Source of the DNA: Pseudomonadota bacterium
Lineage (GTDB): Bacteria > Pseudomonadota > Alphaproteobacteria > Rhizobiales > Aestuariivirgaceae
Assembly (NCBI GenBank): GCA_963205315.1
Contig: CAUJIO010000069.1
Location: 62,001-126,000 of the forward strand
Length of the DNA: 64,000 nt
Direction: 5' to 3'
The notes under the pieces were generated by a model. The model ran no database searches, was not told the DNA's origin, and was given only the letters and a program-made list of their open reading frames with translations. Shown one piece after another: positions 38,015 to 42,072 of this stretch. Each line of letters starts with the position of its first letter. Within the stretch, counting starts at the first letter, position 1. The position numbers and the translations under genes are program-made.

Positions 38015-38118
38015 TCAATATGTCTTCTTCCGGTCGGCGGCAAATTTCGTCGCGCCGTCGACTCGCACCATGGCTGCGACGTATCGCGGGCGGCGCGTGT
38101 CAATCCATCTCTGTGTCA
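38015..38118 (-). pseudogene. Severed 3' end of the EamA transporter gene
   Basis: Joining 40968 to 38110 across the mobile element restores the minus-strand reading frame of the EamA gene. After its Thr-Gln it would read RWIDTRRPRY and continue to a TGA at 38015, a basic hydrophilic tail of about 32 residues. It now has no start of its own. This supports insertion into an intact gene. Confidence 0.75.
38111..38118. repeat. Left 8-bp target site duplication
   Basis: CTGTGTCA directly abuts the left inverted repeat and is found again at 40968-40975 directly outside the right repeat. The 8-bp length fits IS1-type transposition. Confidence 0.85.
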
Positions 38119-38137
38119 GGTAGTGTCTCAGTTTGAA
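38119..38137. repeat. Left terminal inverted repeat (19 bp)
   Basis: Exact reverse complement of 40949-40967. The stop codon of the 55-residue passenger protein lies inside it at 38128-38130. Confidence 0.92.
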
Positions 38138-38295
38138 TATCTCGCGCAAGCTATTTGGGCGTCATACCGGTGGATAGTCCCGCCGTCCATTCTGGCGCGA
38201 ACACAGGACTGGTACGGTGAAAAATAGATATACGCTGCAGCGGCGATCACGATCGCCGCTGCAATAATCAGCCCCATCTTAACTTGCTCGCTCAT
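38128..38295 (-). CDS. 55-residue membrane microprotein in the transposon
   Basis: A frame starting MSEQVKMGLIIAAAIVIAAA has one membrane helix (about 7-25), then YFSPYQSCVRA and a C-terminal AQIACARYSN. Its ATG overlaps the transposase stop (ATGA), so it is translationally coupled to it, and its stop falls in the terminal repeat. Two cysteines lie on the far side of the helix. Function is unknown; the coupling and its fit to the element end argue that it is a real part of the transposon. Confidence 0.6.
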   Translation of the reverse strand: MSEQVKMGLIIAAAIVIAAAAYIYFSPYQSCVRARMDGGTIHRYDAQIACARYSN

Positions 38296-39176
38296 GCCGC
38301 AGATCCCTTTTTCTTGTATGTCTTAGGGCGGCCTGGCTTAGGCGCAATCTCATCCATCGCCGCGATGATTTCTTCCCACGTCCAAAGGCGGTCGGTCAAT
38401 CCAGTCGCTATCGCAGGCGTAACGCGAAGGCTCTTGTGAATGCGGACCCAGTTATACCAGACGGTCCATATCGCCACCATGTGAACGTGGCTCTCGAACT
38501 TCTTTGAGAAGGCGTTCGTCAGGCGGGTGAAGCGGCGATTATGCATCCGCATGGTGAGGTTGGACCGCTCCACGTAGGACGTGCTGACGTGCTTGGGGTC
38601 CGGCTCCCCCTCAATACGGTGCTTCTGTGTGCCGATGCACTCAGCCGGGCTATACTTGCCCTTGGCGCTCTCCGGGGCGGCGCCGTACACCTTGTGAAGC
38701 ACGGCATAGTCAACATCACCCCCGAACGCGCCCTCGACGGCCTGTAGGTAAGCCTTGTGGCCGTCTGTCGTCAGTTGAACCCGGTTCTCAATCCGCGACC
38801 GCAGGTCATCCATGAATGCGATGGCATATTCGCCGTCACGGTCACCCACCAGCCATGAGACAATGAGCTTCGTGTCGGCCTCGATGCCCGTCCAGGTCCA
38901 TGTGTCGCCCGCCCCATAGACAGGGTTCTTCATGGCGGCAACGTTCTTCTGCTTGGCAGCGGTGAAGCTCCAGATTTCGTCACACTGCACCCGGTTCACC
39001 TTCACACCGCGCACCTTGTCGTCATGGAATGCAGCGCAGAACTTGCCCGCGTCGATTAGCAGCTTGGCGACGGTGTTGATGCTCACATCTGCTAGCCGGG
39101 AAACCGACCGCATGGACGATCCCTCGCAGAGCATGTTGAGCATTTGGGCGCGAACTTTTGGGGGCAACTTGTTCAT
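38292..39176 (-). CDS. IS1-family transposase
   Basis: This 294-residue transposase has an N-terminal helix-turn-helix (GSSMRSVSRLADVSINTVAKLL) and a DDE domain: D in VQCDEIWSF, D in TTDGHKAYLQ and E in YVERSNLTMRMHNRRF. The C terminus is basic (RPKTYKKKG). These features fit the IS1-type group common in Alphaproteobacteria. ATG at 39176 is preferred because the upstream 13 codons look spurious. Frame and catalytic residues are intact, so the element could still be active. Confidence 0.88.
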   Translation of the reverse strand: MNKLPPKVRAQMLNMLCEGSSMRSVSRLADVSINTVAKLLIDAGKFCAAFHDDKVRGVKVNRVQCDEIWSFTAAKQKNVAAMKNPVYGAGDTWTWTGIEADTKLIVSWLVGDRDGEYAIAFMDDLRSRIENRVQLTTDGHKAYLQAVEGAFGGDVDYAVLHKVYGAAPESAKGKYSPAECIGTQKHRIEGEPDPKHVSTSYVERSNLTMRMHNRRFTRLTNAFSKKFESHVHMVAIWTVWYNWVRIHKSLRVTPAIATGLTDRLWTWEEIIAAMDEIAPKPGRPKTYKKKGSAA

Positions 39177-39274
39177 GCCCATAATATATGAACTTAAATG
39201 CTTGCTAGCAAGCATTATTTTCGGTCTTTATTTGTTAACAATTCATACATAAATGGAAAAAGGGAGTATCGCTC

Positions 39275-39499
39275 ATGACCGATTTGCCAGTTACCAAGAT
39301 GTTTTTGGAAATGATCGCACAGGGCCATTTCAAGCCCGTGGTGCATATGGAAGAAATGCGCCTTCCAGGCGAATTTGTCGCCACTCCGGCCATTACCACC
39401 TATGGTACCCCTGACATTCCGATTCGTAATGGGGTTTACGGTAATGCCAAATTGGGACAGCGTTCTGAAGGAAATTTCTCAGTTACAGATTACTTCTAA
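39275..39499 (+). CDS. Possible 74-residue passenger protein
   Basis: A frame beginning MTDLPVTKMFLEMIAQGHF has a good ribosome site (AAAGGGAG, about 10 bases upstream) and an ordinary composition. Its last 56 bases overlap the protease gene in another frame. It could be a small leader protein coupled to the protease. No family was recognised. Confidence 0.4.
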   Translation: MTDLPVTKMFLEMIAQGHFKPVVHMEEMRLPGEFVATPAITTYGTPDIPIRNGVYGNAKLGQRSEGNFSVTDYF

Positions 39500-40394
39500 C
39501 GAATCTGCTTTCGATAAAGCTCGGCGGAAATATCTTAAGCGGCTCTACAGCCATACAGGCAGAAACGTTATTGCCTACTACTCAGGATTTCTAAGTAAGC
39601 CGCGTTTAGAAGGCATAGAAATCAATGATGAAGACAAGAATGGCTTCATGCTCTGCATTCACGGTCTAGACCGCAGTAAAGGTCTAGATGTGATTCTTCA
39701 TACTCCAGGCGGTGATGGTCAAGCCACAATTTCATTGGTCGAATATCTTAGAAGCATGTTTGGAAATGACATGCGAGCGATAATCCCACAAATCGCAATG
39801 TCGGCGGGAACAATGATTGCGTGCTCATGTAAAGAGATTGTCATGGGGAAGCAATCAAGCTTGGGGCCAGTCGATCCGCAGTTCGGCGTAATCGGCGCAG
39901 CAAATCTTCTTGAAGAAGTTAAAAAGGCCAAGGCAGACATAGCCTCCAACCCTAACCTTGCAATGTTTTGGGGGCCTATTCTGCAAAAAATTACGCCATC
40001 TTTTCTTGAGCGCTGCGAATGGGCAGTAGCAGATTCAAACGAGTTTCTGGACACAACACTTCGGCAAAATATGTTCGCAAATCTTAGCGAAGAATTGAGG
40101 AATCAGAGAACTGAAAGTGTGAAATCTAGCTTTGCAAACAACGAAGGCAGGGCTCACAATACCCATATTCAGTATGCGAAATGCCTTGAGGCAGGACTAA
40201 ATGTTGCGCGTCTTGAGAACGATCCCACATTGCAAGACTTGGTGCTAACAATCCACCACTGCTACATGCACACTCTGAGCAACACAGCGGCTTTTAAGGT
40301 CATTGAAAATCATTTGGGCAAGGCAATGGTCAGGCAGCAGCAAGTGCAATACATGGCCGCTCCAATGTCACTTAGTGCGGGCGGCCCATCGTAA
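39444..40394 (+). CDS. SDH-family Clp-fold serine protease (transposon passenger)
   Basis: This 316-residue protein belongs to the SDH/SppA-related Clp-fold proteases. MPNWDSVLKEI then ARRKYLKRLYSHTGRNVIAYYSGFL is the family N terminus; ILHTPGGDGQATISLVEYLR forms the oxyanion region; the expected nucleophile is Ser in IPQIAMSAGTMIACS, and QSSLGPVDPQFG follows. There is no signal peptide, and a single soluble domain is predicted. ATG at 39444 was chosen because the family pattern starts there, although the frame opens at 39375. Codon use is AT-rich compared with the chromosome. Confidence 0.82.
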   Translation: MPNWDSVLKEISQLQITSNESAFDKARRKYLKRLYSHTGRNVIAYYSGFLSKPRLEGIEINDEDKNGFMLCIHGLDRSKGLDVILHTPGGDGQATISLVEYLRSMFGNDMRAIIPQIAMSAGTMIACSCKEIVMGKQSSLGPVDPQFGVIGAANLLEEVKKAKADIASNPNLAMFWGPILQKITPSFLERCEWAVADSNEFLDTTLRQNMFANLSEELRNQRTESVKSSFANNEGRAHNTHIQYAKCLEAGLNVARLENDPTLQDLVLTIHHCYMHTLSNTAAFKVIENHLGKAMVRQQQVQYMAAPMSLSAGGPS

Positions 40395-40607
40395 AGAGGC
40401 AGCGACCTTTGCAATACGCGAACGTTCTTCTTTCGTGAGTGATTTGGCACGAGCTTGCCCGCCAAGCGAGGAAACGCTTGTATTGTCTTTCTTTGCGTCC
40501 TGCACTTCCGTAGTATCCGACTCCTCGCCCACGGCAATCTTCATCACCTTGACGGCATTGCCGATCACATCGGCGGGGCGTTTTTCGCCTGTAGGACCGC
40601 GTGGCAT
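40368..40607 (-). CDS. Small basic protein with RPADVIGNAVKVMKIA motif
   Basis: This 79-residue protein starts MPRGPTGEKRPADVIGNAV and ends with GGQARAKSLTKEERSRIAKV then AASLRWAARTK. The C-terminal block resembles small basic alphaproteobacterial proteins that are often labelled RNA-binding. Its ATG overlaps the stop of the upstream membrane protein gene (TGATG), so the pair is coupled. Its end overlaps the protease end by 27 bases. Role in the element is unknown; nucleic-acid binding is plausible from the basic helix. Confidence 0.65.
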   Translation of the reverse strand: MPRGPTGEKRPADVIGNAVKVMKIAVGEESDTTEVQDAKKDNTSVSSLGGQARAKSLTKEERSRIAKVAASLRWAARTK

Positions 40608-40873
40608 CACGTATCAGCCTTTCCGGTTGGCTTGTCGGTCTTCCCGAAAGCATAGCCCATGGCTCCGGCGATAATTGTCGCAGCCTCTCCAGAAAGGGCG
40701 TTGTTGAGCGCCAAAACGCCTGTCACCGGTATAGCCATGCACAAGACCGAGTATCGGATAAACTGCCACCCTATGCCCTTTGCATCGTCATATGCATTCC
40801 CCTTTCGGTTCAGATAACCGACTAGGAGCACACCCGGCACCGCAGATGCCAAAATTGCCGAAACCCAGACCAT
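40607..40873 (-). CDS. 88-residue membrane protein (transposon passenger)
   Basis: The protein has two or three hydrophobic segments (VSAILASAVPGVLLVGYL, VLCMAIPVTGVLALN, AATIIAGAMGYAFG) with a charged loop between the first two. ATG at 40873 has GGGAG seven bases upstream and is better than the TTG one codon earlier. It is the first of two coupled genes at the right end of the element. I do not recognise the family. Confidence 0.6.
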   Translation of the reverse strand: MVWVSAILASAVPGVLLVGYLNRKGNAYDDAKGIGWQFIRYSVLCMAIPVTGVLALNNALSGEAATIIAGAMGYAFGKTDKPTGKADT

Positions 40874-40948
40874 CAAAACTCCCTATGCTTGTCGGAAAGC
40901 ATATAGGAAACCATGGCCGGAAGCGATAGCATGTCAAGAGCCGCCGAT

Positions 40949-40967
40949 TTCAAACTGAGACACTACC
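40949..40967. repeat. Right terminal inverted repeat (19 bp)
   Basis: Exact reverse complement of 38119-38137. It now supplies the last five codons and stop (GSVSV, TGA at 40950-40952) of the interrupted EamA gene. Confidence 0.92.
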
Positions 40968-41834
40968 CTGTGTCAGGATCTGGAGAAACACGACACTCAG
41001 CATGATGAGGCTTGCCCCGGCAATTGCCATGCCCGGCATGGTTTCGCCGAGAAAATAGGCGGCACTGCACGCGCCGAATATGCCCTCCGCACTGGCGATG
41101 ATCGCTGTTGCGGTGGCAGATGTGTGCTGCTGTGCAAAGGCCATGAGGAAATAGGGTAGCGCCTTGGATATGAGGCCCATCATCAAGAGCTCCGGCCAGG
41201 CCATGATGATTGATCCGATGCTGTTGCGTTCAAAGATCAGGGCCATGGCGAAGCACAGGGCGGCGCTGATCAGAAATTGGACGACCGTCATCCGGCTCGG
41301 ACGGCCGTAGCGCAGCACCAGCCGGCTGTTGAGCGAAATGCTGAACGCGAACAGCACTGCCGCCAAAAGGCAAAACCCATCGCCCCACGCCAGCGCAGTC
41401 AGCGAGGCCCCGCCCATCAACCAAACGCCACCCAGCACCAGCAGGATGGACGGCAGCACCGCCGCTGATGGCCGTTCGCTCAGGATGGCCCACGCTGCAA
41501 GCGGGGTTATCACCGTGCAGGTGTTGACGAGGAAGCCGGCGTTCGACACCGAAGTGCCGCCATAGCCGATCTGCATCGAGGCGACCGACGCACCGAACAT
41601 CAGGGCGCCAAAGATGATTTCTCGGCCGCTCGGCCCAGGCACACCTTTCTCGACGTGCGCTGCCGGACCCTCGAGCCTCACCAGCGGGGCAAGAGCGAAA
41701 GCCCCCAGCGCCAGCGTCAGCGCCGTCGCCATCAACGGTCCCATGTGTTCGAGAATTGTCGTCTGAGCGACATTGCCAAGCCCCCACAGGGCGGCGGCCA
41801 GCAAGACGATCAAATGCGCCCGCTGGCAGGTCAT
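40950..41834 (-). CDS. EamA/DMT-family transporter, C terminus replaced by the transposon
   Basis: This 294-residue inner-membrane protein has ten predicted helices in two EamA repeats, opening LIVLLAAALWGLGNVAQTT and with SEGIFGACSAAYFLGETM in the second repeat. DMT transporters usually export metabolites. The last helix (GMAIAGASLIMLSVVFLQIL) is intact; the next residues, TQ then GSVSV, come from the host gene and the terminal repeat. The original tail of about 32 residues is stranded at 38015-38118. Because all helices remain, function may persist. ATG at 41834 is preferred over 41885. Confidence 0.82.
   Translation of the reverse strand: MTCQRAHLIVLLAAALWGLGNVAQTTILEHMGPLMATALTLALGAFALAPLVRLEGPAAHVEKGVPGPSGREIIFGALMFGASVASMQIGYGGTSVSNAGFLVNTCTVITPLAAWAILSERPSAAVLPSILLVLGGVWLMGGASLTALAWGDGFCLLAAVLFAFSISLNSRLVLRYGRPSRMTVVQFLISAALCFAMALIFERNSIGSIIMAWPELLMMGLISKALPYFLMAFAQQHTSATATAIIASAEGIFGACSAAYFLGETMPGMAIAGASLIMLSVVFLQILTQGSVSV
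40968..40975. repeat. Right 8-bp target site duplication
   Basis: CTGTGTCA, identical to 38111-38118, directly outside the right inverted repeat. Confidence 0.85.
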
Positions 41835-42072
41835 GTCTGTCCACCCCGCGACAGATGCAGAACAACAGTGGCCAGCGCCTTGCACATGATCGAACCCCGC
41901 CTCTCACATCAACCCACACGGGAGCAGAGCCCAGCAGGCGTGAGGGCGGCGTGACGAACGCGTGAATTCGACAGTCTCCGCGCGAACGCGCCCGGAAACT
42001 TGTCGGACGCCGAGTTTGCTGCGGTATGTGAAGATCGGCCGGCGGCCGGGAGAAAAGCGCTGACCGACGGTA

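Follow-up and report, generated by a model that had tools for sequence, protein, structure and literature searches.

Here we describe E1, a transposon with exact ends and passenger genes that occupies positions 38119-40967 (2849 bp) of the window, by which we mean the whole 64,000-nucleotide stretch of contig CAUJIO010000069.1 from an alphaproteobacterium of the family Aestuariivirgaceae. Its 19-bp terminal inverted repeats are complementary at 19 of 19 positions, and both flanks carry the same 8-bp target duplication, CTGTGTCA. Read from the side of the small basic protein here termed RPADVIG, the element runs from its end through dyad 1, slot A, the RPADVIG gene, slot B with a putative protease gene and a 74-aa open reading frame (ORF), dyad 2, the transposase gene and slot C to the other end, with the protease and RPADVIG genes convergent (Table 1). 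The original prediction, made from the letters of this DNA, had described an IS1-like element with exact repeats, duplications and cargo, and in this it was right. The protease, transposase and RPADVIG protein that it named are real ORFs (PF01972, 6e-20, for the protease; PF03400, 5e-5, for the transposase), and its membrane proteins correspond to two small ORFs of 89 and 55 aa that are hydrophobic by KD19 (maxima 2.19 and 2.36). It overlooked the 74-aa ORF next to the protease, the dyads common to the elements and the swapping of cargo.

The transposase relates E1 to the IS1 family, in which inverted ends begin with GG and duplications span 8-9 bp; GG-starting ends and 8-bp duplications are found in E1 and in the elements described below. 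Against PF03400 the transposase scores 24.1 bits, which equals the cut-off, and D79, D151 and E216 (long-ORF numbering), invariant across 72 transposase rows, are probably the DDE residues. Because its score against the NCBIfam IS1 equivalog (58.8 bits) falls below the cut-off of 100, we refer to E1 as IS1-like and not as IS1 proper. Classical IS1 elements measure about 0.8 kb and have two overlapping frames fused by frameshift, whereas here a single frame of 295-307 aa lies in an element of 2849 bp. The transposase start was placed at 39176, since the MNKL ATG at this point is common to homologues and a sister copy in the same genome, E2, has a stop codon upstream. With insertion sequence (IS) ends and a transposase that enclose passenger genes, E1 is a transporter IS (tIS). 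Cargo beyond that of a simple IS1, on which the original prediction laid weight, is therefore present but not unprecedented, as IS carrying passenger genes are defined in two published papers (PMC7986276, PMC9330008).

Table 1. Features of element E1 and its borders (positions in the window)
Feature	Position	Strand	Basis
Target-site duplication, left copy (CTGTGTCA)	38111..38118	.	
Terminal inverted repeat, transposase side, 19 bp	38119..38137	+	
Slot C: 55-aa hydrophobic ORF, overlaps transposase stop by 4 nt	38128..38295	-	ORF call + hydropathy
IS1-like transposase, start at MNKL codon, ORF open to 39215	38292..39176	-	
Putative transposase promoter TTGCTA-N17-TATATT, 6 nt before ATG (leaderless)	39183..39211	-	sequence only
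Dyad 2, ATGCTT-N6-AAGCAT, over -35 box of putative transposase promoter	39198..39215	.	
Slot B cargo gene 1: 74-aa ORF, 56-nt overlap with protease gene	39275..39499	+	
Slot B cargo gene 2: 316-aa ClpP-fold, SDH-type serine protease (PHROG 11747)	39444..40394	+	
RPADVIG protein, basic (isoelectric point 10.1), element core gene	40368..40607	-	
Slot A: ~88-aa ORF, two hydrophobic segments, overlaps RPADVIG start	40607..40873	-	
Dyad 1, 66 bp from RPADVIG-side end, directly ahead of slot A gene	40885..40902	.	
Terminal inverted repeat, RPADVIG side, 19 bp	40949..40967	-	
Target-site duplication, right copy (CTGTGTCA)	40968..40975	.	

E1 has three sister copies in its own genome. At up to 3 mismatches the 19-mer of the ends occurs there 4 times forward and 4 times in reverse, as facing pairs only, and a backwards control occurs 0 times in either orientation. 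The pairs delimit E1, E2 (3337 bp), E3 (2611 bp) and E4 (3251 bp, also locus L014; ends with 2 mismatches), each with a separate 8-bp duplication. These four facing pairs against none in the control, and the single transposase inside one perfect end pair with duplication, rule out chance repeats or a composite transposon. Transposase identity to E1 is 94% for E2 and 63% for both E4 and E3. The cargo consists of an XRE-ImmA protein with a 181-aa partner in E2, a Panacea-domain protein with a 130-aa hydrophobic protein in E3, and a HigB-like toxin, an XRE-ImmA protein and a 163-aa protein in E4; E1 and E2 have in common only the ends, the start of RPADVIG and the transposase. E1 itself is inserted in an EamA-type transporter gene (40950-41885), at its 3' end; when the flanks are joined, the frame of that gene runs on past the insertion.

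Beyond this genome, a transposase search of genome contigs gave 581 candidates, the best 80 of which were taken as loci. Both ends were present in 65 of the 80, with an exact 8-bp duplication in 61 of these 65; the 15 loci without an end pair, many of them at contig ends and two (L049, L051) with one end only, were left out. Together with 3 plasmid elements and the 4 own elements, the 65 pairs form a set of 72 elements (2125-4251 bp, median 3220 bp). This clearly rules out the possibility, raised with the original prediction as its refutation, that no other element would have such ends. No bare insertion sequence was present (0/72), so cargo as an accident of one copy is ruled out, and a profile search found the RPADVIG protein in all 72. 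Two identical 3316-bp copies (L084 and L086) lie in one Sphingopyxis chromosome with different duplications, and therefore the whole unit moves.

The family was also searched for from other parts of the element. The RPADVIG profile matched 15 of 398 genomes of the phylum. Of the 12 loci fetched, 10 (L146-L149, L151-L156) are enclosed by paired ends; seven of these are complete elements with a transposase, six of them flanked by a duplication, while in another the transposase is broken and the last two are short and lack it. Of the other two, L145 has no end pair and the pair at L150, with a poor second end, was not counted. The end sequence alone is present in 39 of 385 genomes of the class; 7 of 10 end pairs fetched contain a transposase, and all 7 also contain an RPADVIG gene and cargo, though one (L162) appears from its equal length and duplication to be L050 and hence to be already among the 72. 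The remaining three pairs (809, 933 and 1917 bp; duplication in the first only) have neither transposase nor RPADVIG; considered as bare IS, they were read instead as non-autonomous or chance pairs. The 809-bp pair (L157) encloses a single 186-aa gene, DNA-glycosylase-like by eye, and the short pairs L146 (880 bp) and L151 (817 bp) each enclose an RPADVIG gene; these three are probably non-autonomous derivatives.

The RPADVIG protein, which the original prediction had counted as cargo, is in fact part of the element core, a role as cargo being ruled out by its presence in 72/72 elements, in 10/12 loci of the reverse search and in 7/7 end-found pairs. It also matches PHROG 2384, the P63C phage family, and the P63C cargo copies that were read (e.g. 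L036:4882-6018; L160) have near their N-terminus GG.ARA..L..E.R..IA..AA.RW, the same motif as the C-terminal half of RPADVIG. A second clan (L152-L156, L010, L093 and E4/L014) has GGTAGTGGGTC-type ends and an RPRD-type small protein, a divergent form of RPADVIG, and is without the ATGCTT dyad; GGTAGTGGGTC ends occur in 3 of the 4 RPRD-type elements of the 72, and L092 is a hybrid with an RPRD protein and GTCTC ends.

Cargo is exchanged between otherwise closely related elements. Alignments of close pairs are confined to blocks: 80-100 bp at the beginning, the gene for RPADVIG (for the most part its early portion), the transposase region starting near dyad 2, and 20-26 bp at the end. Three cargo slots can therefore be defined: A from dyad 1 to RPADVIG, B from RPADVIG to the transposase and C after the transposase. 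Slot A ORFs stop within 12 nt of the RPADVIG start in 43 of 54 cases. On a transposase tree of 73 rows with nine cargo labels (20 rows labelled "other"), 42 label changes are needed, compared with a mean of 45.7 after shuffling and a possible minimum of 8; cargo is almost unlinked to the tree. The five elements with a homologue of the E1 protease (E1, L009, L035, L123 and L041, the last with a broken frame) all lie apart, each beside an element with different cargo: E1 beside E2 (RmrA), L009 beside L083 (P63C), L041 beside L031 (C5), L123 beside L025 (RmrA) and L035 beside L037 (other).

The passengers were compared with defence models of PADLOC. Elements of the transposase search (L086, plasmid and own elements left out) supplied 94 cargo proteins with a length of 150 aa or more, and 94 of 113 flanking ORFs served as a control (19, long ones and the tail of the list, dropped to equalise numbers); the matches listed are those of the 25 most-matched families, out of 96 for cargo and 28 for flanks. 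At 1e-10, 16 cargo proteins matched RmrA, 7 RmrT and 4 HEC-04. Among the 25 of 28 families listed for the 94 flanking proteins, RmrA and RmrT were absent and none had more than 2 members. RmrA and RmrT make up RosmerTA, an anti-phage toxin-antitoxin system described as tested in a published study (PMC10440598). RosmerTA-type genes are cargo of sister elements such as E2, and not of E1. Pfam families among the 94 cargo proteins included Peptidase_M78 (18), P63C (11), NYN (6), AAA_21 (AbiEii-like, 4), Abi_2 (4) and SDH_protease (2); single proteins matched PD-T4-5, HEC-09, a Fic candidate (PDC-S24) and a Bro-N candidate (PDC-S13), and cargo clusters as XRE-ImmA proteins in 18 of the 72 elements. 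These comparisons support the view that family cargo often consists of toxin-antitoxin or abortive-infection systems. The suggestion of the original prediction that the cargo is a functional module, perhaps of stress response or defence, thus stands at family level, where RosmerTA-type cargo contrasts with flanking controls, but not as direct evidence on the E1 protease; a defence role for the E1 copy is plausible.

The protease of E1 is of the SDH type. It scores 71.9 bits against PF01972 SDH_protease (cut-off 31.3), and the best PDB match of its structural model (predicted template modelling score, pTM, 0.76) is ClpP by fold, weakly (TM about 0.3 by query), in keeping with the Clp fold that had been predicted for it. 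Its score against the NCBIfam Clp_like_SDH equivalog (81.1 bits) lies below that cut-off of 250. It belongs to PHROG 11747, of function not known (1.5e-84), and has a conserved MSxGT segment with S120 invariant in 7 rows of these putative proteases. An alternative start at TTG 39375 was rejected, as homologues begin at an ATG matching 39444. The gene occurs once in its own genome, and homologues were found in 5 of 397 genomes of the order (own genome and that of L123 included). Outside the elements, homologues occur in phages of Porphyromonas, Shewanella and Gordonia, hosts from three phyla, and in viral contigs and phage-like plasmids. The homologue of genome G266 is prophage-like by eye, and an Enterobacter plasmid has a copy between an antitermination gene and a holin gene. 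In a viral contig (L112:4001-5376) a truncated protease gene precedes a gene that resembles an IS1595-type transposase (by eye). The protease element of an Acidiphilium plasmid (L009:2022-2860) adjoins an annotated Xre/RES toxin-antitoxin pair, and in another genome (L121:4192-5335, G292) the small ORF and protease occur without element ends beside efflux-type genes (by eye).

A small ORF accompanies the protease throughout. At 15 of 15 loci there is a same-strand ORF of 56-112 aa whose end falls no more than 90 nt ahead of the protease start or 75 nt beyond it, where shuffles give an expectation of 5.5; the count left out L104 (without upstream DNA), the near copies of L105 (L106-L111, L113) and the Enterobacter copy, which is broken, and start points in G049 and G200 are approximate. 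The ratio of nonsynonymous to synonymous differences (pN/pS) of the small ORF is 0.49 between E1 and G266 and 0.18-0.58 in four other pairs; across all five pairs the protease gives 0.04-0.22 (0.21 for E1 and G266). Because of these values, the 74-aa ORF reads as a real, fast-changing protein. We conclude that small ORF and protease form a two-gene accessory module common to phages and transposons. Two overlapping co-directional genes, one of them small, are the layout of type II toxin-antitoxin systems, and this layout and the company that the pair keeps suggest, at about even odds, a protease-based toxin-antitoxin or anti-phage module.

The elements also share a dyad. ATGCTT-N6-AAGCAT occurs exactly at 43 sites in 33 of the 72 elements, where shuffles give at most 0.25, and the spacer is always 6, none of the other lengths from 0 to 11 being found. 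Allowing up to one mismatch raises the count to 81 sites in 55 elements (expected 0.4). Of these, 50 are found at a distance of 51-79 bp from the end on the RPADVIG side. Another 24 precede the start of the transposase by exactly 39 or 40 bp, and one has another offset; the other 6 are elsewhere, and two of them (L034, L040) resemble the transposase site behind a mis-set start. At the transposase position the dyad overlaps the TTGAC of a putative promoter with 16-18 bp spacing and a start codon close behind, a layout recognisable in loose form in 53/72 elements. Dyad 1 of E1 stands directly before a Shine-Dalgarno-like AGGAG. No promoter is claimed at the RPADVIG-side end, where TTGACA and TATATG are about 26 bp apart. 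The dyad is present in 55 of 68 elements with an RPADVIG-type protein, in contrast to 0 of 4 with the RPRD type, and to 0 of 5 with that type in the reverse search. This fits binding of RPADVIG to the dyads without proving it, because the transposases of RPRD elements form a group too. A protein that binds both dyads would be expected to repress, and RPADVIG and the transposase are the only universal candidates.

Taken together, we read E1 as an intact IS1-related transposon that acts as a cassette carrier, with a fixed core and interchangeable passengers that are often toxin-antitoxin or abortive-infection systems, and put the probability of this reading at roughly 0.6. To the fixed core belong both ends, the transposase gene, which is predicted to be leaderless, RPADVIG, and a pair of 18-bp dyads, placed over the putative -35 box of the transposase and before the RPADVIG operon. 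Cargo might be exchanged by recombination within the core blocks, and toxin-antitoxin or abortive-infection passengers could plausibly retain the element in the cell and shield the host from phage. RPADVIG (or the transposase) may bind the dyads and so repress both the transposase and its own operon, while the 74-aa protein may keep the ClpP-like protease inactive or present its substrate; loss of the small protein, or sensing by it, during infection or element loss could then unleash the protease. The fuller proposal, a dedicated defence-cassette shuttle derived from IS1 in which RPADVIG, as universal regulator, silences transposase and own operon through the dyads, cassettes recombine at core blocks, and transposons and phages have in common, in the 74-aa/protease pair, a protease-based defence or toxin-antitoxin system not yet described, is tentative and leans towards doubtful.

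A number of results weigh against the cassette-carrier reading and its extensions. No PADLOC family matches the E1 protease (0 at 0.001), and its role in defence is therefore argued by association only. Small upstream ORFs arise by chance in about one third of shuffles, and the 74-aa ORF diverges faster than the protease (0.49 against 0.21). ParA-like and zinc ribbon cargo is not defence-like. The extent of cargo swapping is slightly below random, with 10 of 200 shuffles as low as 42. The joined flanks of E1, compared with 69 genomes of the family, matched the own genome alone, as two halves; homologous flanking DNA was found in 0 of 68 relatives, and hence no empty site. The predicted structure of RPADVIG is weak (pTM 0.37), with no PDB match and no recognised DNA-binding fold.

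Three other accounts deserve consideration. The protease cassette could be a chance acquisition with a housekeeping-like function in quality control or stress, on a tIS whose passengers are arbitrary and unconnected with defence. The missing PADLOC match would suit this account, as would the cargo that is not clearly defensive (ParA-like, zinc ribbon, HARE-HTH) and the fact that PF01972 covers chromosomal SDH proteases too; it is nevertheless unlikely, given that defence and toxin-antitoxin models match cargo and not flanking genes, that the protease family occurs in phages and phage-like plasmids, and that the five copies carried by elements lie apart on the transposase tree. Alternatively, the pair may serve the element or a prophage and not host defence, regulating transposition or prophage development as ImmA does in a conjugative element. 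The cassette is divergent to the transposase with a dyad between, one phage copy adjoins a late-transcription regulator, and ImmA-type protease domains occur in other cargo. Elements with the closest transposases, however, keep core and dyads despite quite different cargo, and therefore no single cargo is needed for transposition control; we regard this account as distinctly improbable.

The remaining account concerns the core. The dyads may be bound by the transposase, or may fold into hairpins in the RNA where ribosomes bind the transcript of the RPADVIG operon; RPADVIG itself would then be a nucleoid-like or strand-transfer helper of transposition in place of a repressor. RPADVIG is basic and without a recognised DNA-binding fold, dyad 1 directly precedes AGGAG, and the transposase is likewise in every element, which makes this quite possible, if short of an even chance. 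It is set back by dyad 2, which overlaps the -35 box and so would not be transcribed from that promoter, and by the restriction of dyads to RPADVIG-type elements, a contrast tempered by the distinct transposases of the RPRD type.

Among known mobile elements, the cassette carrier described here resembles IS1 and tIS in its IS1-like transposase of predicted DDE type at the Pfam cut-off, its GG-starting inverted ends and its 8-bp duplication, and differs from them in the lack of bare copies (0/72), the universal accessory protein, the two fixed dyads and the free exchange of cargo. Long members such as ISMhu11 also occur in IS1 subgroups of ISfinder. In Tn3-family transposons, according to a published study, toxin-antitoxin pairs adjoin the transposition genes and their promoters; they were gained on several separate occasions, and co-regulation with transposition has been proposed for them (PMC7157771). 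Toxin-antitoxin pairs beside transposition genes are a shared trait, but the present family has another transposase family and size, in every element the cargo is what varies, and it is broader, taking in modules of the RosmerTA, P63C, Abi-like and protease kinds. Neither a resolvase nor a res site came to notice, with no search aimed at them. Tn7-like transposons are reported to have very diverse defence cargo (PMC8649781), which is likewise diverse here, in elements of 2-4 kb with one transposase gene and one to few cassettes. Compared with SDH-type ClpP-like proteases, that of E1 falls below the Clp_like_SDH cut-off and is tied to a small upstream ORF. A literature search, which covered few subscription journals or preprints, found no paper on the family, on the RPADVIG protein that all its members encode, on the dyads or on the protease pair; the class of cargo-carrying IS1-like elements (tIS) is thus known, and this variant is without a description in the literature searched.

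The family is widespread in alphaproteobacteria. If our reading is true, very small transposons with exact, easily found ends shuttle toxin-antitoxin and anti-phage cassettes across this class, and their unknown cargo, delimited to the base, would provide a ready list of candidate defence systems, among them the P63C proteins and the protease pair. The elements would also offer a simple system in which to study the joint control of transposition and cargo by a single accessory protein and a single operator.

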